Below, piece after piece: positions 2,578-33,085 of a stretch of DNA of 64,000 nt. The DNA lies in assembly GCA_019240405.1 (NCBI GenBank), contig JAFAYL010000059.1, positions 1 through 64,000 of the forward strand. Direction: 5' to 3'. This DNA is from Acidobacteriaceae bacterium (lineage in GTDB: Bacteria; Acidobacteriota; Terriglobia; Bryobacterales; Bryobacteraceae). How positions within the stretch are numbered: the first letter of the stretch is position 1; every line of letters begins with the position of its first letter. Under the pieces are notes generated by a model, which saw only the letters and a program-made list of their open reading frames with translations, did not search any database and had not been told where the DNA came from. The position numbers were made by a program, and so were the translations under genes.

Positions 2578-3294
2578 CTACATAAGCTGGATCAAGACAA
2601 CAGTGATGTTGTCAGGTCCGCCAGTCTGTCTTGCGGCGTCGACAAGATAGTGGCATTTCTCTGGGAGAGATTTCTGCGAATCGAGAGTCTGGTGCAGGAT
2701 TTTTTCTTCGAGAACTCCGTGCAATCCGTCGGAACACAGAAGAATCTGATCTCCGGAGTTGAGATGGAGGGGACGGCAGTCCACCCGAAGCTCGTCCATG
2801 GAGCCAACGGCCATCGTTAAGACATGCCGCATGGGGTGTTTTCGTAAGGCTTCGTCGGTCAGTCCGAGCTGCGATCCGACCTCATTCACCCACGTTTGAT
2901 CGTGCGTAATGAGAGAGAACTCGCGATTTGAGCAAAGATAAGCGCGGCTGTCGCCGACGCTTGCCACCTGAACTTCGCCGTCATGAACGGCGCGGACGGC
3001 AAGGAGCGTAGTTCCCATGCCGTCGAGCTCGGGGTTCGCGCGGGCAGCCTCTCGCACGGCGCGGTTGGCCTCCACAAAACTATGTTCGAGCGCCTCGATC
3101 CTGTGGTCGTTGGGGGAGCTCAGAAGGACTTCATAGACCTTTTCCGCGCTTAAACGGGAGGCATATTCGCCTGCATTTGCCCCACCCATCCCGTCAGCGA
3201 GGACGAAAATGCCGGACGCAGTGTCGCTAATGAAGTAATCCTCGTTATTGGGACGGACACAACCGGCATCTGAAAGGCCGAAACCCTCTAGCAT
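2578..3294 (-). CDS. PP2C-family serine/threonine protein phosphatase (Stp1/PrpC-like)
   Basis: 238 residues, the usual size of bacterial single-domain PP2C enzymes, which remove phosphate from Ser/Thr residues phosphorylated by Hanks-type kinases using two Mn/Mg ions. Conserved motifs appear in order: 'VRPNNEDY' near the N-terminus, 'VLADGMGG' (metal-binding Asp and Gly), 'MGTTLLA', 'VGDSRAYL', 'LITHDQT', 'LLCSDGL' (metal Asp), and the C-terminal 'GGPDNITVVLI' with the last metal-binding Asp. No kinase gene is visible nearby. No signal peptide, so cytoplasmic. A perfect TATAAT lies 11 nt upstream of the ATG, and there is no Shine-Dalgarno sequence, so the transcript may be almost leaderless. 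Confidence 0.93.
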   Translation of the reverse strand: MLEGFGLSDAGCVRPNNEDYFISDTASGIFVLADGMGGANAGEYASRLSAEKVYEVLLSSPNDHRIEALEHSFVEANRAVREAARANPELDGMGTTLLAVRAVHDGEVQVASVGDSRAYLCSNREFSLITHDQTWVNEVGSQLGLTDEALRKHPMRHVLTMAVGSMDELRVDCRPLHLNSGDQILLCSDGLHGVLEEKILHQTLDSQKSLPEKCHYLVDAARQTGGPDNITVVLIQLM

Positions 3295-3305
3295 TCAAGT
3301 TTTTG

Positions 3306-3311
3306 ATTATA
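3306..3311 (-). promoter_or_regulatory. -10 element (TATAAT) of the PP2C gene
   Basis: Reading the minus strand, TATAAT is followed by 11 nt and then the ATG at 3294. A start site six or seven bases downstream of the hexamer would leave only four or five untranslated bases. No convincing -35 hexamer sits at 16-18 nt. Match is by eye. Confidence 0.45.
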
Positions 3312-3353
3312 GTACTGGCAGCATGCTCTGGATTGCAACGCTGAACTGGGCCT

Positions 3354-4547
3354 TTACTCTGTGGCTTTCGGCTGCAACATGGCTTTCAGCTCTCGGAATG
3401 CAGTTTCATCGAAGTTATTTTTGAGCCGCTCGCGAGGGAGTGACTTGACGTCGGCCAGATCCGCATCGCGGCGTTCGATACGATTCAACAGATCGCGCGC
3501 ATCACCCTCATCTGGATCGCGCTCGATAAGCTCTTCGAGGCGCTTCGTGGATTCGTCAAAGTTGCCATGTCGCAGCAGCGCGAGAGCCAGATTGAAACGA
3601 TAGGCTGAGTCGTTCTGATCGCCGTCCAGCGCGCGGCGGAAGTCATCAATTGCGGCAGGGGAATTCAAGCGGTATTCGGCCGCAGCGAGATTGTTATAAA
3701 CCTCGTTAAGCGGGACTGTCTTACTAACTTCGCGAAAGTAATCAGCGGATTTTGAGTAATCGCCTGCGCCGTATGCGCCCAGGCCCATTTCGAAGCGGGC
3801 TTCAGCATATCTGGGATCGTTGACCGGAACATGGCCGAACCATTCGACGGCCTGGCGATACTCCTTGCGATCGAGAGCCAACTTTCCAAGCTCGAATGCG
3901 GGAGCGGTGAATTGCGGGGCGAGGGACACGGCTTGAGAAAACCACTTCTGCTGTTTCTCCTTGTTCGAAGATAGAAGCCCGCGAATGTAGCTCTCCTCGG
4001 CATCGACGCGCGTGAGCTTTTGAGGAATCATGAACTGTTGGAGATCGAAATTCGCCCGCGGCTCCAGATACTTCAGCGATGCCCAGGCGAGATGCTCCTC
4101 GAGGCGCGAAAGATCGGTAAGCTTTCCTGCTTCGGATAGCTCCGGACCGTCGTGCATTTTCCTAAGATCCAGAAAGCGGGCGCTAACTTGGAGCGAACTA
4201 TTCTTAAGTTGAGAATCGTTTGCAGGTAAATTGGCATTGTAAGTGCCGTAACAAAGATAGTCAGTATCTAAGGTTTGACCTAACTTGATAAGGGTGCCCT
4301 TTGTAAATTGAGCATCGGACCTGAGCGCCAAGCGCCGCATAGCTTCAGCGCGGGAGGCGCGATCGAGTACGATCTCATTGGCCGCCCGGAACTCGTTGCG
4401 GAGTGTTTCGGCGATGCTTTCGCCCACCCAATCGAGATCTGAGTATTGCGAGTTGTTATGGAACTGAAGAACGAGGACAGTGGCGGGGAAGGCGCGGAAG
4501 GCCAGCGTCAGAGCGGCCCCGAAAAGGATCGCGCGCTGTAATTGCAC
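3354..4547 (-). CDS. TPR-repeat protein with TolB/FlgO-like N-terminal domain
   Basis: 397 residues with a GTG start (no better ATG; next Met is 69 residues in) and a signal-peptide-like N-terminus ('ILFGAALTLAFRAFPA'). Residues ~23-125 resemble the CsgG/FlgO/TolB-like 'ability to act with a TPR partner' domain: 'VLVLQFHNNSQYSDLDWVGESIAETL' is the pattern seen at the start of many TPR proteins (given here only as a description). The C-terminal two thirds hold several TPR motifs, e.g. 'AEARFEMGLGAYGAGDYSK' and 'SAYRFNLALALLRHGNFDES'. Such proteins serve as periplasmic or membrane-bound scaffolds. It sits between miaA and the PP2C gene on the same strand. The specific role is unknown. Confidence 0.8.
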   Translation of the reverse strand: MQLQRAILFGAALTLAFRAFPATVLVLQFHNNSQYSDLDWVGESIAETLRNEFRAANEIVLDRASRAEAMRRLALRSDAQFTKGTLIKLGQTLDTDYLCYGTYNANLPANDSQLKNSSLQVSARFLDLRKMHDGPELSEAGKLTDLSRLEEHLAWASLKYLEPRANFDLQQFMIPQKLTRVDAEESYIRGLLSSNKEKQQKWFSQAVSLAPQFTAPAFELGKLALDRKEYRQAVEWFGHVPVNDPRYAEARFEMGLGAYGAGDYSKSADYFREVSKTVPLNEVYNNLAAAEYRLNSPAAIDDFRRALDGDQNDSAYRFNLALALLRHGNFDESTKRLEELIERDPDEGDARDLLNRIERRDADLADVKSLPRERLKNNFDETAFRELKAMLQPKATE

Positions 4548-23702: not shown

Positions 23703-26051
23703 CTACGTTTTCATTCGGGCCATAAAGTACAGGCCTGCGAGCGAAAACACCAGATCGGGCGACCAAGCTGCCATAACAGCGGGGAGTTGGTTCAAATCGC
23801 CGATCTGCTCGAAGAGAGTTCCCACTGTCCAATAAGCAATAGCGATCCCGAAGCTGATTCCGACTCCTGTCATCGCGCCGCGATTTCCAGCTACGAACGC
23901 GAAGGGAATGCTGAGAATCGCCATAATCAGCGCAAACAAAGGAACCGCAAACTTCTTGTAATACTGCACCTGGAGTGGAGTCGTATCGAGGCCGCTGGCT
24001 TTCAGATCGCGGATGTAATGGCCCAGCTCTTCGAAGTTCATCTCCTTGTATTCTTTTTCCTCTTTCACGAACCAGGAAGGAGGCTCGGTGAGTTGTGGAA
24101 ATGATGCCGAAGCGCCGTAGAACGGATGGTAGTCACCCGAGCTTTTCCGAATCGTCTGACTCATGCCGTTTTGAAAGACCCATGTTTTCAGACTCGGCTC
24201 CCAACGCGCCCTATCGGCTGAGATTTGATGAACGATGCGGAAGCTTTTCGGGTCAAGCTCGTACACATTCACCTTCGACATGATGGCTTGGTGCGGATCG
24301 AGATAGCGGTAGTTGTAAATGCGCGAGCCTTCGCCATAGACCCACTGGCGGTCAGGGCGGAGATACGTCTGAACAGGCTTCTTTTTAATTTCGCTGCGCA
24401 GCATTTCCTGGCGCCGGTTCGCTTCGGGCAGATAGTAATGATCAAACCCGAAAAGCAGAACACTGATGAAAAGACTAACGACTAAGACTGGCATAGCCAG
24501 GCGATGAACACTGATCCCGCCCGCTTTGAACGCTGTCACCTCGTTGTACTTAGTAAGTATTCCGAAGCAGATCAGGGAGGCGACCAGCGTCCCAATCGGA
24601 GTCAAATCGTAGATCAGCTTCGGCGCAAGATGCGCCAGGTAATCGAGCATCATGGACATTGCGATGTCGTTCTTGATCATGTCGCCGAGAAGCTCGAAAA
24701 AGGTAAAGACTTCGATAAGCGCAACTAACGCAAGCAGCAAGATTCCGAAATAAAAAAGAAAACCGTTCAGCACGTAGACATCGATGAGCATGGGCCGGAA
24801 CCCAAACCCGGGAGCTTTTCGCGACGTCGGGCGGGTTCGCGCTACGGGCCAGAAGGCCATAATGTTCGCGGGTATTCGTCGCACAAAGTTGCGGAAAGCG
24901 GCAACTACGTCCCGATCCCCTGGCTTCTCGAGCCGGCTTAACAGAATCACCCCGGCAATAGCGAACACGCCGTTTGGAGTCCAGACCGCGAGCGGCACAG
25001 GAAGGCTTCCCTTTTTCGCGAGTCCGATGAGACTGATGAGGCCCATGTAGTAGAGGAACGCAAGCAGAACCGTAAGGACAAAGGCAGCCGACTTTCCGCC
25101 TTTGCGCGAGGAGATACCGAGCGGGACTCCTACGGATGCCAGAAGGACGCAGGCAAAAGGAAGCACGAATCGCTGATGCAGCTCGATCTCGGCGTCGACA
25201 TGATCTTCACGAGAAAGATCATGCTGCCGATAAACGCGCTTATAGAGCGGCCCAGTGTCCATTTCGCGCTCGGTCTTGTTGAGCTGCAGATCAGCTGGTT
25301 TCTGCGCCTGTAGAGCTTCCACTTGCAGAGGCGCTGCAGTGGTGATTACATTGCCATCTTTGTCGCGCTCGCTCGAGCGAACACCCGTCATATCGAGGAT
25401 GATGCGGTTGTGAGCAGCGTCAGGATGAGGAATAGCTTGTTCGGCAACGATGATTCGCGGACCCTCACCTCTGTTCTTGCCCTGTTGCTGAAGCTCATCT
25501 GGCGGGGTGACGTCGGCCATAAATACTTGCTGCCAGATGACCTGTTTTCCGGCCGCGAGTACGTCGCCTACGTAAAGAACGGTGTTAGGAAATTGTTCAT
25601 CAAAGATTCGCGGTTCGATATTGCCCGTAAGCTCCGTTGCCGCGAGCCCTCGAGCAATATTTGAATCGAGATGTAACGACAGGGGCGTAAGCCAAAGTGA
25701 CGCGACGGCCGTGACGCACATCGCGAGAAAGGCAAATAGCAGAACGGGCCGGGCAACTGTAAGGCTCGATATTCCGGAAGCGCGCATGGCAGTGATTTCG
25801 CTGTCTGAAGACATGCGGCTCAGGCCGATCAGAATGCCGACCAACACGCCCAACGGGAGCGCGAATGGAATGGTGGAGGGCAAAGCGTATAACAAGAGCT
25901 TCGCGATGGTTTCGATTGGGGCAGAGCTCCTTACGAGAAGGACCGAAAGCCGCTCGATCGTGCGCAGAAAGAGCACGAACACGAAGAGAAGCGTTCCGAG
26001 AACCGCGCTGGTTAGGACTTCGCGAAAAATAGTCCTGCTGAGAATGCGCAT
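23703..26051 (-). CDS. lptFG: Fused LptF-LptG lipopolysaccharide export permease
   Basis: 782 residues, twice the size of a single permease. The N-terminal half (~1-370) is LptF-like: membrane segments around 'VLGTLLFVFVLFLRTIERL', 'IPFALPLGVLVGILIGLSRM', 'SSDSEITAMRASGIS' (coupling helix that contacts the LptB ATPase), the periplasmic beta-jellyroll and 'VPLGISSRKGGKS'. The C-terminal half (~400-782) repeats the plan as LptG: 'FYFGILLLALVALIEVFTFFE', 'TKYNEVTAFKAGGISV' (second coupling helix) and a second jellyroll, then 'LIMAILSIPFAFVAG'. The two halves together form the membrane part of the LptB2FG transporter that lifts LPS from the inner membrane, so the cell is a diderm with LPS. No lptB nearby. 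Such fusions are known in Acidobacteriota. Confidence 0.94.
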   Translation of the reverse strand: MRILSRTIFREVLTSAVLGTLLFVFVLFLRTIERLSVLLVRSSAPIETIAKLLLYALPSTIPFALPLGVLVGILIGLSRMSSDSEITAMRASGISSLTVARPVLLFAFLAMCVTAVASLWLTPLSLHLDSNIARGLAATELTGNIEPRIFDEQFPNTVLYVGDVLAAGKQVIWQQVFMADVTPPDELQQQGKNRGEGPRIIVAEQAIPHPDAAHNRIILDMTGVRSSERDKDGNVITTAAPLQVEALQAQKPADLQLNKTEREMDTGPLYKRVYRQHDLSREDHVDAEIELHQRFVLPFACVLLASVGVPLGISSRKGGKSAAFVLTVLLAFLYYMGLISLIGLAKKGSLPVPLAVWTPNGVFAIAGVILLSRLEKPGDRDVVAAFRNFVRRIPANIMAFWPVARTRPTSRKAPGFGFRPMLIDVYVLNGFLFYFGILLLALVALIEVFTFFELLGDMIKNDIAMSMMLDYLAHLAPKLIYDLTPIGTLVASLICFGILTKYNEVTAFKAGGISVHRLAMPVLVVSLFISVLLFGFDHYYLPEANRRQEMLRSEIKKKPVQTYLRPDRQWVYGEGSRIYNYRYLDPHQAIMSKVNVYELDPKSFRIVHQISADRARWEPSLKTWVFQNGMSQTIRKSSGDYHPFYGASASFPQLTEPPSWFVKEEKEYKEMNFEELGHYIRDLKASGLDTTPLQVQYYKKFAVPLFALIMAILSIPFAFVAGNRGAMTGVGISFGIAIAYWTVGTLFEQIGDLNQLPAVMAAWSPDLVFSLAGLYFMARMKT

Positions 26052-29759: not shown

Positions 29760-30068
29760 ACCGTCACTTTAAGCTAAGTACAGCGAGCCATGTTACTTCC
29801 GCATGTGAGGTTTCGACTTTTAATCCATCATTCGCCTGATTTTTGCCTGAGGTGCTACCGAAATCTCGGGTATAGCTGTAATTTTTTCATTATGCGTTTC
29901 CTTTGAAACCCCGCCACCGCGTTGCATCGTCGGACTTAGTAGATTGGCATCCGACCTGCTTCTACAGAAGCGGACGAGTCGCCAATGAGCGGACTCGTGA
30001 CGAATTGATCGCGCAGAAAGACGCGATGAGAAAGAAAAGATTAAATCTCGACCCGTGGAGGAGTTGAA
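29760..30068. other. Intergenic region between ppgK and the LPKTA-protein gene
   Basis: A 309-nt divergent spacer without a credible gene. It holds the sigma-54-like promoter at 29944-29960 and a strong ribosome site (GGAGGAG, six bases before the ATG at 30069). An AT-rich patch lies at about 29875-29900. I see no riboswitch or operator that I can name. Confidence 0.5.
29944..29960 (+). promoter_or_regulatory. Sigma-54-like (-24/-12) promoter for the LPKTA-protein gene
   Basis: TTGGCAT (29944-29950) and CTGCT (29956-29960) match the consensus TTGGCAC-N5-TTGCT with two mismatches. The GG and GC doublets are exactly ten bases apart, as sigma-54 requires. A start site near 29971 would give a leader of about 98 nt ending in the GGAGGAG ribosome site. 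No enhancer-binding protein gene is in the window. Confidence 0.5.
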
Positions 30069-30773
30069 ATGAGCCATAAACTTCGTTCTTTTTATGTCGC
30101 GGCTTTGGCCGTTACAGGCCTGGGCTTGATAGGAGGGGCATTTCTCCCGAAAGCCCATGCTGATGCTTGGGACAAGATGACGATCGTGAGTGTGAATGAG
30201 CCAATCATCGCCGGAAACAAAGTACTGGATCCGGGTACGTACGTTTGGAAGCTACTCGATTCGCCGTCGGACCGGCATATTGTACAGATATTCGATAAAG
30301 ACCAACGCCACTTGGAGACGACTGTTCTAGCCATCCCGAATTACCGGCTTCAGCCTAGCGGCAACACGCAATTTAGCTTTTGGGAAACTCCAGCCGGAGT
30401 TCCGAAAGCAGTTCGCGCTTGGTTCTATCCAGGGGACAACTTCGGCCAGGAATTCCCGTATCCGAAGAAGCTGATTGCGCAGTTAGCGTCGGCGGCTCCT
30501 GTTCCGGTACCGACGAATTATGCGGAACCAGAGCCAGCTCCCGCCCCCGCGCCTCAGCCTGAGGCCCAGCCGCAACCGCAGCCTGAGGCTGCTCCTCCGG
30601 CTCCCGAACCCGCCCCGCAAGCGACAACACAGCAGAACACTAGTGTGGCGCCAGTAGCGTTGCCCCAGCGAACGCTCCCCAAGACCGCTAGCTTCAACCC
30701 GCTCGTCGGACTATTAGGTCTTGCGTCTCTGAGCCTAGCTGGTCTGCTCACGTTCGCCGCCAAGCGAGCGTAA
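30069..30773 (+). CDS. Secreted protein with C-terminal LPKTA sortase-type sorting signal
   Basis: 234 residues. Signal peptide 1-31 (cleavage at KAHA-DA). Residues 34-135 form one domain seen in many Acidobacteriota proteins ('VLDPGTYVWKLLDSPSDRH', 'QIFDKDQRHLETTVLAIPNY', 'AVRAWFYPGDNFGQEFPYPK'); its function is unknown. Residues ~140-200 are a Pro/Ala/Glu/Gln linker like those that span cell walls. The end has the three parts of a sortase signal: LPKTA at residues 203-207, a hydrophobic helix at ~211-229 and the positive tail AKRA. The fifth residue is Ala instead of Gly, as in substrates of several class D/E sortases. A sortase is encoded two genes downstream. Strong ribosome site GGAGGAG. 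Where it is anchored in a diderm is not known. Confidence 0.85.
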   Translation: MSHKLRSFYVAALAVTGLGLIGGAFLPKAHADAWDKMTIVSVNEPIIAGNKVLDPGTYVWKLLDSPSDRHIVQIFDKDQRHLETTVLAIPNYRLQPSGNTQFSFWETPAGVPKAVRAWFYPGDNFGQEFPYPKKLIAQLASAAPVPVPTNYAEPEPAPAPAPQPEAQPQPQPEAAPPAPEPAPQATTQQNTSVAPVALPQRTLPKTASFNPLVGLLGLASLSLAGLLTFAAKRA

Positions 30774-30829
30774 CTCGGAGAACGTCTCTAGGACCTAAAG
30801 TCCGCAGAGGCGGTGCATCAATGATTATT

Positions 30830-30862
30830 CGAACGCCTGTTGGATGAGCCATTAGGCGTTCG
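30830..30862 (+). repeat. Inverted repeat (9-bp stem) between the LPKTA and VWA genes
   Basis: CGAACGCCT (30830-30838) and AGGCGTTCG (30854-30862) are exact reverse complements with a 15-base loop. There is no T tract behind the stem, only CATTT, so it is not a standard terminator. It might trim or attenuate transcription into the VWA-sortase pair, or be an operator. Confidence 0.6.
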
Positions 30863-30887
30863 GATCATTTAGGCCGTTGGGAAGCGT

Positions 30888-31877
30888 ATGGACGTTACCG
30901 TTCCGAGCCGGAGTAAGTCAGCGTTCTGCGCCGCCCTTTTGTGCCTGGCCGCATCCGCTCTGTTGTCCGGTTATCAAGCGGGAAATCCGAGCGCTTACGT
31001 TATTGAAGATCATGTCAATCTAGTCCTTCTCGATGTTAGCGTTAAAGATCCTCGCGGCGGGTACGTGACAGGACTCACCAAGGATAGATTCCAGGTCTTC
31101 GAAGATGGCCGGCGTCAAACGGTCACCGAGTTTGCCAATATCGACGCGCCCGTCACGGTCGGCTTGGTGGTTGACAACAGCGGAAGTATGCGATTCAAAC
31201 GTCCGGAGGTGGTGACGGCCGGCTTGGCATTTGCGAAAGAGAGCAATCCTCGAGACGAATTTTTTGTTGTTAACTTCAACAATCACATTGTCAGCGGTCT
31301 TCCCGAGAAGGTTCCATTTACAGACAAGATTCATCAGTTACGAGCGGCCCTCTATTATGGTGAGCCGATGGGACAGACGGCGCTTTATGATGCAATCGCA
31401 TACTCATTGGAGCATTTGGAACTTAGCCGCCAGGATAAAAGGACACTTATCGTGGTGAGCGATGGGGGGGACAATGTCAGTAAGACGTCGCTTCCAGAGT
31501 TAATGAAGCTAATTGATTCCTCGCGCGCAACGATCTACACAGTCGGGCTATTTGACCCCGATGATCGGGACCGGAATCCTTCCGTTTTACGAAAGCTGGC
31601 GAAGGTGAGTGGCGGTGAGTTCTTTGAGCCCCCGGCACTAGACGATGTTGTCCCGATATTTCATAAAATTTCTCAAGACATCAGACATCGATATTCAATC
31701 GGCTATGTTCCCGATGACGTGGGGACAAAGCGCATGGTTCGATCGCTGCGGGTGATCGCAACGAATAAGGACGGGCGCAAGCTTTTTGTGCGAACGCGAA
31801 CGGCTTATACTACGGCTCCCTTCTCGGAATTGATCAGTGAGCAAAAGCGAAATAGCGTTGAAGTAAGGCATAAGTAG
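30888..31877 (+). CDS. Secreted VWA-domain protein (Acidobacterial VWFA-related type)
   Basis: 329 residues. Signal-peptide-like N-terminus (~8-28, 'SAFCAALLCLAASALLSGYQ'). A short beta domain follows ('VNLVLLDVSVKDPRGGYVTGLTKDRF' region, ending 'FEDGRRQTVTEF'), which is the usual leader of the acidobacterial VWFA-related family. The VWA fold covers ~88-290: MIDAS motif DNSGS at Asp96-Ser100, 'GQTALYDAI' with the third MIDAS Thr and 'VVSDGGDN' with the fourth-site Asp. A complete MIDAS suggests metal-dependent ligand binding. Ten bases before the sortase start, hence one operon with it. No sorting signal of its own. It could be a partner or adhesive component of the sortase-anchored protein; this is inference from neighbourhood. 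Confidence 0.9.
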   Translation: MDVTVPSRSKSAFCAALLCLAASALLSGYQAGNPSAYVIEDHVNLVLLDVSVKDPRGGYVTGLTKDRFQVFEDGRRQTVTEFANIDAPVTVGLVVDNSGSMRFKRPEVVTAGLAFAKESNPRDEFFVVNFNNHIVSGLPEKVPFTDKIHQLRAALYYGEPMGQTALYDAIAYSLEHLELSRQDKRTLIVVSDGGDNVSKTSLPELMKLIDSSRATIYTVGLFDPDDRDRNPSVLRKLAKVSGGEFFEPPALDDVVPIFHKISQDIRHRYSIGYVPDDVGTKRMVRSLRVIATNKDGRKLFVRTRTAYTTAPFSELISEQKRNSVEVRHK

Positions 31878-31887
31878 AACAGCGGCA

Positions 31888-32964
31888 ATGAAGGGGCAAG
31901 CAATAGTTAGAACAGATCAAGAGAGCTGGTTTATCAAACCGGGCCTTCACAGCCACAATACGAGGCGGCGGCTGGACCGGCATTTTTTGAGGCACAAAGC
32001 GGTGCGCTTCGCCCAGGTATGCTTCTTTATTCTGGGGCTCTGCGGCATCGCGTATTACGGCTATTCACTTGCGGATGAGCACATTTATCAGGCTTACGAA
32101 AATTGGGCGTTCGACCAGCACATCGCGGGCCGCGCGGCTACGTTTGCGGATTATCTGAGAGAAAAGACACCGTTCGGATTTCTGACGGGATCCACGAGGT
32201 CCCTCTCCGCGACACGAACGCTGGAGTCCCTCGACATAGCCAAGCCGGAAGAAGGAGCGACCCCGCGTCCAGCGCAGGGTTCTGTTCTGGGCCGGGTGGA
32301 TATCGGCCGCCTCAACCTTTCGGCTATCGTCCGGGAAGGAGTGGATGATAACACTTTGAGCCGCGCAGTCGGGCATTTGCCATCTACCGCGTTACCCGGC
32401 GAAATCGGGAATTTCGCAATCGCAGCCCATCGAGACACACTCTTCAGGGCTCTTAAGGACATTCAAGCTGATGATAAAGTAACATTCGAGTCCTCATCTG
32501 GAAGCTACACTTACAAGGTTATCTCCACGAAGATCGTTAAACCTTCGGATCTCAGTGTGATTCAGCCCGAAGGGAATGTCCGGTTACTAACGATGATCAC
32601 CTGTTACCCGTTCTACTACGTCGGTGCTGCTCCAAAACGGTTTATCGTTCAGGCGAAATTGGTGGGTAGTGAGGCAGCGGACTCAGACGCTGAGTCCCGA
32701 ATCCAAGCGCAGGATACTGGGCCGCCAGGCACTGACTCGGCCACGGAACACGCCGGCGCCTTTCAGGTTAAGCCCAAAGCTCCCAAATCAGCAAATCGAA
32801 AACAGCCACGCCACGCGCGTGGCTTTTCTGCTACAGGGGGCTTCTCCAGCTTAGCTTCGACCCGCTCTCGCGAAGGTCATTCACCTATCTCTTCCAAGAC
32901 ATCCGCGGCTCATAACAAACACAAACTCTGGCGCAAGCTATTGCACCGCAATCGCGACGAGTGA
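31888..32964 (+). CDS. Sortase (class D/E-like) with membrane anchor and basic C-terminal tail
   Basis: 358 residues. One membrane helix at ~39-60 ('VRFAQVCFFILGLCGIAYYG'), a linker of about 75 residues, then the sortase beta-barrel (~130-260). All three catalytic residues are visible: His181 in 'FAIAAHRDTLFRAL', Cys239 in 'LLTMITCYPFYYVG' (TxTCYPF motif) and Arg251 in 'APKRFIVQA'. Sortases cut LPxT-type signals between Thr and the next residue and transfer the protein to an amine acceptor. Residues ~265-358 form an extra Ser/Lys/Arg-rich tail that looks disordered and is not needed in other sortases. The candidate substrate ends in LPKTA just upstream. The acceptor in a diderm is unknown. 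Confidence 0.93.
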   Translation: MKGQAIVRTDQESWFIKPGLHSHNTRRRLDRHFLRHKAVRFAQVCFFILGLCGIAYYGYSLADEHIYQAYENWAFDQHIAGRAATFADYLREKTPFGFLTGSTRSLSATRTLESLDIAKPEEGATPRPAQGSVLGRVDIGRLNLSAIVREGVDDNTLSRAVGHLPSTALPGEIGNFAIAAHRDTLFRALKDIQADDKVTFESSSGSYTYKVISTKIVKPSDLSVIQPEGNVRLLTMITCYPFYYVGAAPKRFIVQAKLVGSEAADSDAESRIQAQDTGPPGTDSATEHAGAFQVKPKAPKSANRKQPRHARGFSATGGFSSLASTRSREGHSPISSKTSAAHNKHKLWRKLLHRNRDE

Positions 32965-33011: not shown

Positions 33012-33085
33012 TGGGAGGTCGTCTAATGGTAAGACTGCAGACTCTGGATCTGCGTATCGGGGTTCGAGTCCCTGCCTCCCAGCCA
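33012..33085 (+). tRNA. tRNA-Gln (anticodon CTG)
   Basis: Acceptor TGGGAGG (33012-33018) pairs with CCTCCCA (33075-33081), discriminator G, encoded CCA 33083-33085. D stem GTCT/AGAC, anticodon stem GCAGA/TCTGC with loop CTCTGGA; anticodon CTG at 33044-33046. T loop GTTCGAGTC. 74 nt including CCA. Confidence 0.97.

Follow-up and report, generated by a model that had tools for sequence, protein, structure and literature searches.

A 64,000-nucleotide stretch of an Acidobacteriaceae bacterium genome (contig JAFAYL010000059.1, positions 1 to 64,000; the whole stretch analysed is hereafter called the window) carries three genes on the plus strand that fill positions 30069-32964 (open reading frame (ORF) list): those of a small secreted protein with a C-terminal LPKTA sorting signal (SUB), a VWA protein and a sortase. 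The trio is real and goes beyond a chance grouping. We consider that these genes make up a dedicated, class-D-like, one-substrate sortase system that anchors SUB to meso-diaminopimelate (meso-DAP) peptidoglycan beneath an outer membrane, a reading to which we give a probability of about 60% and in which the acceptor, the final place of SUB and the role of the VWA protein are what we infer. Sortases are usually regarded as Gram-positive machinery. About a fifth of the genomes sampled from this phylum (82/395) encode one, the sorting signal is found only in sortase genomes (48/48), and the target of sortase attachment under an outer membrane could be tested directly in any cultivable member that has a single sortase and a single substrate.

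The putative substrate, the VWA protein and the sortase

The preliminary description had placed the LPKTA protein, the VWA protein and the sortase on the plus strand within 2.9 kb, and both the ORFs and the residues that it named were found there. The SUB gene (30069..30773, +; 234 aa) encodes the putative sole sortase substrate and follows a Shine-Dalgarno-like GGAGGAG (30057..30063, +, read directly). Its product consists of a signal peptide (assigned by eye, as were all signal peptides and transmembrane segments), an N-terminal beta domain of ~110 residues (30162..30494, +), a Pro-, Ala-, Glu- and Gln-rich linker of 69 residues, 28% of them Pro (30468..30674, +), the LPKTA motif (residues 203-207; 30675..30689, +), and a hydrophobic segment with a positive tail that closes in KRA (30690..30770, +; helix 210-233 in the model). 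L203-P-K-T206-A207, the hydrophobic stretch and K232-R233 can be read directly from the sequence, and cleavage would fall between T206 and A207. The protein thus has every part of an LPXTG-type sorting signal, i.e., LPxT, a hydrophobic stretch and a positive tail on a secreted protein, and it is the sole window ORF (six frames, at least 80 aa) that passes our sorting-signal filter. Generic signal models narrowly miss it (TIGR01167, 15.1 vs 15.9; PF00746, 14.9 vs 20), and such proteins may therefore be annotated as hypothetical. The beta domain has no Pfam or NCBIfam family above cut-off and is predicted to be mainly beta, with a predicted local distance difference test of 71-96 over the block. 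The window substrate ends in LPKTASFN, and the 14 rows of the signal alignment read LPxTAS or LPxTGS.

The window's own genome (95.8% complete) holds a single sortase, a single SUB and a single full signal; the next-best place in the signal-profile search is partial (E 0.29), and four further weak places (L149-L152) were left out of the reading. A raw DNA search of this genome for LPxT followed by A or G was uninformative (264 matches vs 327 in the reversed control), and the signal profile was used instead.

The VWA gene (30888..31877, +; 329 aa) matches TIGR03436 (E 1.3e-49, 169.5 bits vs a cut-off of 81.25), a VWA family named for acidobacteria. Its product has a signal peptide and neither an anchor nor a C-terminal sorting signal. 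The metal ion-dependent adhesion site (MIDAS), which had been described as intact, is indeed so: D96-x-S98-x-S100, T164 and D192 do not vary across 13 rows, and in a 32-row set they are kept in all 31 rows ungapped there, save for one Thr at S100. The VIT-VWA target model TIGR03788 scores far below its cut-off (22.3 vs 551.65) and no VIT match was found. The predicted structure (predicted template modelling score 0.81) best matches the fold of inter-alpha-inhibitor heavy chain 1 (E 8e-12), with many VWA chains scoring close behind it.

The sortase gene (31888..32964, +; 358 aa) matches PF04203 (E 1.7e-30, 105.8 bits vs a cut-off of 26.6), and His181, Cys239 and Arg251, the catalytic residues of the preliminary description, are invariant across the 30 rows of the sortase alignment. 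The protein has an N-terminal transmembrane segment, a catalytic domain at about 138-259 and a basic C-terminal extension. Its best NCBIfam match is the SrtD model NF058671, whose cut-off it passes by a margin of 1.2 bits (141.2 vs 140), while it stays below those of class E (103.8 vs 160) and class GN (TIGR03784, 81.6 vs 158.25), and on these scores we call it class-D-like; LPKTASFN does not agree with the LPxTATN named in the title of the SrtD model. A PGxHSxNxxRR-like motif, presumably cytoplasmic, precedes the transmembrane segment (31888-32010) and occurs in 9/30 sortase rows (the window, L002-L004 and L006-L010). Within the C-terminal extension lies a hairpin that resembles a terminator, its tail rich in T (32804-32824, scored on both strands); shuffled sequences give such matches as often.

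Co-occurrence across the phylum

Searching genome contigs with the sortase returned 40 loci, of which the 13 best relatives (L002-L014) carry titles of Acidobacteriaceae, Bryobacteraceae, Bryobacterales or Terriglobia. The order SUB, VWA, sortase is kept in L003-L009 and L011-L014, and SUB with sortase and without VWA is seen elsewhere, e.g., in L010. We extended this to a census, i.e., a PF04203 search of 395 genomes of the window's phylum (presumably Acidobacteriota, going by the titled relatives) and the neighborhoods of each of the 105 matches other than the window's, near-copies being kept in the locus counts. PF04203 is matched in 82 of the 395 genomes and in 62 of 213 genera, single-contig genomes included. 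The pair recurs: 42/105 sortase loci have a SUB domain upstream on the strand of the sortase, and 74/105 have a sorting signal (by the filter) no more than 2.5 kb away on that strand, vs 2/105 with one on the opposite strand. The signal profile (35 positions, E 1e-3 or better, no more than 19 candidates being scored in any genome, so that absences are those of this search) matches 48 genomes; every one of these belongs to the 82 that have a sortase and not one to the other 313 (Fisher 7e-40, without correction for relatedness). Of 63 signals, 48 have a sortase within 5 kb on their own strand. The SUB domain was found in 51/395 genomes, 41 with a sortase and 10 without (at most 11 candidates scored per genome), and none of the ten ORFs read from the sortase-free genomes (of 12 matches) has a signal. 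LPKTA-like ends, the loss of which in orthologues would according to the preliminary description mark the pairing as accidental, are conserved: an LPxT-type motif, located by a C-terminal pattern without a hydrophobicity test, is present in 62/65 SUB-domain proteins adjoining a sortase (the window, the contig-search loci and the census loci together, near-copies included), split into 37 LPxTA, 15 LPxTG, 3 LPxTS, 2 MPxTS, 2 MPxTD, 2 MPxTA and 1 VPxTA. The motif is absent in L027, L040 and L072. In L040 (1-483) the SUB piece runs nearly straight into the sortase piece at a contig end, i.e., a rearranged locus or a misassembly, and L085 has two LPRTA proteins, one with a SUB domain on the opposite strand (1461-2144, -) and one directly before the sortase (3120-3632, +).

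LPxT proteins with other front parts also stand beside sortases: repeat-like ones in L048 and L058 (sub-threshold Pfam matches), one with PG_binding_1 in L071 (above cut-off) and a VIT-VWA protein in L083. This variety suggests that the phylum holds one-enzyme, one-substrate modules in which the front domain has been exchanged. The type of neighbor tracks a quick sortase tree (133 domains of 146 rows, excluding 10 loci without the cysteine pattern and three short domains) with 28 changes vs a shuffled mean of 63.8, and none of 200 shuffles was as low, near-copies contributing to this figure; the VIT-VWA labels were set by eye, with a Pfam check for L083 only.

Between the SUB and VWA genes lies a spacer of 114 nt (30774..30887, +) with predicted stable RNA hairpins. 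The RNA of 30774-30900 folds at -49.9 kcal/mol (z -3.9), and z is below -2 in 15/17 trio spacers of 40-500 nt, a count that stands without control spacers for comparison (11 of the 28 trios fall outside this length range and were left out). A consensus scan of the window spacer found no terminator match and no sigma-70 promoter match, and the hairpins may perhaps hold the substrate mRNA above that of the enzyme. The spacer between the VWA and sortase genes is 10 nt. Directly past the trio is a tRNA-Gln (33012-33085), which is also 3' of the trio in L003, L004, L005, L006 and L009 and absent in the other 8 of 13 scanned loci.

The acceptor and the alternatives

The host had been taken for a lipopolysaccharide-bearing diderm with a one-substrate sortase, which agrees with the single sortase, SUB and full signal of its genome. 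LptD was found in that genome, indicating an outer membrane, and the window itself has an LptF/LptG-like ORF (23703-26051, ORF list reading). The MurE of this genome carries DNPR, presumably a mark of meso-DAP specificity, indicating a wall of meso-DAP peptidoglycan. In B. anthracis, the enzyme SrtC attaches LPNTA proteins to meso-diaminopimelate (PMC3297441, excerpt). The idea that the acceptor would be new is not borne out, the cheapest inference from MurE and SrtC being ordinary meso-DAP.

In the proposed mechanism, SUB would pass the inner membrane via its signal peptide and be retained in it by the hydrophobic segment of its C-terminus, as its sequence reads. The membrane-bound sortase would then cut LPKT|A through Cys239, helped by His181 and Arg251, a reaction expected from its family, and the acyl group of Thr206 would be passed to an amine, most likely the meso-diaminopimelate side chain in lipid II or the sacculus. 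The product would be a peptidoglycan-bound SUB whose linker of ~70 residues carries the beta domain at its tip, periplasmic or reaching the outer membrane; fully extended, the 69 residues would span ~20 nm (taking some 3 angstroms for each residue), a length sufficient for much of the periplasm. The co-inherited VWA protein, secreted and unanchored, most likely docks via its MIDAS on anchored SUB or on a ligand of SUB. Sortases L067, L071 and L147 stand beside LPxT proteins that seemingly bear a peptidoglycan-binding domain (PG_binding_1 in L071, E 7.8e-8; L067 and L147 judged by eye). Such PG_binding_1-bearing LPxT proteins are a hint that peptidoglycan is the site of action.

A bolder version, which we offer tentatively and hold to be improbable, starts from Braun's lipoprotein, the tether between peptidoglycan and outer membrane in enteric bacteria. 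SUB might be a comparable, sortase-made covalent tether from the peptidoglycan to the outer membrane or the surface, its beta domain being clamped by the MIDAS of the VWA protein, a split-off VIT-VWA counterpart, or by an outer-membrane protein. If so, Acidobacteriota would possess an interchangeable set of one-substrate modules, built on the beta domain, on repeat proteins, on PG_binding_1 or on VIT-VWA and in most cases numbering one for each sortase.

Several observations weigh against anchoring by a dedicated class-D-like enzyme. The window sortase fails the cut-off of the class D subfamily model NF033746 (129.7 vs 165), and four of the six trio sortases scanned (L003, L006, L009 and L061) are below the SrtD cut-off, with the window and L012 above it (among ten other sortases, L012, L018, L019 and L030 pass and L003, L006, L009, L026 and L061 fail). 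The fold of the beta domain found no match: Foldseek against the PDB gave E 0.18 at best, VIA-align of the SUB model reached a Z of 4.3 within background, mostly against PH/EVH1/Pru-like beta folds, and a PDB sequence search returned two weak rows (best E 0.17). No signal was found by the filter within 2.5 kb of 31/105 sortases; some of these loci are cut by contig ends, L076 has a SUB 2.8 kb away and others are unexplained. For the SUB-domain proteins beside the sortases of L027 and L072, reading all three forward frames revealed no signal. The genome of L072 (G332) has a second SUB-domain protein with LPHTA on a different contig, and a sortase may therefore act in trans. Lastly, 15/63 signals are not near a sortase, so that "one substrate" is not universal, and a full-length VWA paralogue of the window's genome (L191) sits within the branch of trio VWAs. 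An orphan substrate is seen in genome G237, where a 456-aa protein with an LPHTAS end (L154, 3052-4422) lies on a contig other than that of either sortase.

The alternative that fares best, and that we rate a minority possibility well behind peptidoglycan anchoring, keeps the enzyme-substrate pair and changes the acceptor to water (i.e., release), a lipid amine or an envelope sugar or peptide, which would leave SUB freed or in another layer. Sequence alone reveals no acceptor, the signal is LPKTAS and not the LPxTATN of the SrtD name, and diderms possess other C-terminal sorting systems, e.g., GlyGly-CTERM/rhombosortase (PMC3237569, excerpt). The complete sortase triad, the indicated meso-DAP wall and the acceptor used by the closest class that has been studied (PMC3297441, excerpt) argue for peptidoglycan.

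The VWA protein could also be a mere neighbor without a role in sorting, one of many acidobacterial VWAs. Its genome encodes 15 TIGR03436 proteins above cut-off, the window's included, and in the census a VWA adjoins 18/105 sortases, and 16 of the 42 SUB-sortase loci have one and 26 do not; SUB lies upstream in those 16 of the 18, the other two (L043 and L101) being at contig edges. In the genome of L043, a SUB-domain ORF without its end stands at the edge of another contig, in an orientation that fits a broken assembly; the 187,442-base contig of L043, whose genome (G151) is in the window's phylum, is also L015, titled "Cyanobacteria bacterium", and the record is probably mislabelled or mis-binned. 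The sortase-adjoining VWAs (32 rows, ten family codes) share a branch marked 99*, outside which stand 12 of the 16 paralogues retrieved from the window's genome. The other four (L188, L191, L195 and L199) fall inside it without resolution, three of them fragments. A single clade of sortase-linked VWAs is not rejected (approximately unbiased test, p 0.415); the window VWA is present twice in this tree, as identical rows, and L188, L189, L195, L199 and L002 fill less than half of the columns. In 21/28 trios the VWA ORF overlaps that of the sortase (longest ORFs). On the shared branch and the overlaps we judge a mere neighbor unlikely. The earlier suggestion of a partner stands in part: the VWA protein is an optional partner of the SUB-sortase pair, its role being our inference, and it is absent from most such pairs.

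Less likely still is a SUB fiber, in which the sortase would join Thr206 to Lys133 of the next SUB. Class C sortases link pilin subunits via Lys, and a pilin-like motif, EFxYPK (EFPYPK in the window's SUB), stands directly before the SUB linker. Its Lys133 column is Lys in 52/65 sortase-adjoining SUB proteins, Arg in six and another residue in seven, and Lys133 is therefore unlikely to be a universal acceptor; among the non-Lys proteins, L046, L066, L073, L074 and L096 adjoin a sortase and have an intact LPxT end, the SUB alignment has no invariant Lys, L027 and L072 keep YPK without having a signal, and no second sortase was found in the window's genome. We keep this reading as a low rival since none of the 16 signal-less domain copies read, many of them distant, has YPK.

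Even more improbable is that the sortase welds SUB to the neighboring VWA protein. The order of the three genes is conserved and the VWAs share a branch, whereas the 26 VWA-free pairs would have no such acceptor, the best Lys column among those listed reaches 21/32 and the VWA alignment has no invariant Lys; we rejected the VWA protein as acceptor on this lack of a well-conserved lysine. That the three genes came together by accident, with an LPKTA end by chance that generic LPXTG models narrowly miss, has in our view a negligible probability and is already refuted by the signal counts (48/82 vs 0/313 genomes; 74 vs 2 of 105 loci by strand), to which the 42/105 and 62/65 co-occurrences add.

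Comparison with known systems

SrtC of Bacillus anthracis is a class D sortase. The window system shares with SrtC and its substrates BasI and BasH the LPxTA motif, a meso-DAP wall, few dedicated substrates and SrtD as the best match, and differs from them in that theirs is a Gram-positive sporulating cell, with no VWA neighbor mentioned in the excerpt (PMC3297441). The window sortase also departs from the class D subfamily proper in scoring under the cut-off of that model. Class GN, the dedicated Gram-negative sortase TIGR03784 with an LPXTG-ended VIT-VWA target, TIGR03788 (PMC3237569, excerpt), resembles the window system in its diderm host, in the pairing of one sortase with one adjoining LPxT protein and in having a VWA module. 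In class GN the VIT-VWA protein itself bears the signal, whereas in the window a small beta-domain protein bears it and the VWA is separate and unanchored. The enzymes differ as well: the sortase of L083, which adjoins a VIT-VWA protein in the same phylum, is clearly class GN (TIGR03784, 212.9), unlike that of the window. Because VIT-VWA proteins serve as the targets of class GN (TIGR03788; cf. L083), the trio VWA is a possible split-off counterpart of them.

Seven gammaproteobacterial loci (L026, L031, L034-L037 and L041) have related sortases, 39-49% identical in the aligned region, and behind each sortase stands an LPxTAS-ended protein of 173-205 aa, likely another dedicated pair in a diderm phylum. 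Unlike in the window, the substrate is downstream of the sortase, and neither the SUB beta domain nor a trio-type VWA was found beside it. Among TIGR03436 proteins, the window VWA belongs to the family, and the sortase-adjoining members branch apart from 12 of 16 own paralogues.

Among the matches listed in a search of open-licence literature, no paper on acidobacterial sortase-substrate pairs was found; the nearest, in excerpt, is the Solibacter genome paper (PMC3174227), with a table line that gives "Sortase" as 6 vs 1, the meaning of the columns being our own reading. In other excerpts, the sortase discussed in PMC7203096 is termed unknown in any strictly negibacterial phylum, and in 2006 biochemical evidence for a proteobacterial sortase was called wanting (PMC1586193). 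The isopeptide bonds treated in PMC12617251 have no bearing on the present system. One-substrate sortases in diderms are thus an already known kind of system, and what is new here, as far as the literature searches show, is the substrate family, the separate VWA protein, the class-D-like enzyme and the phylum-wide link between signal and sortase.

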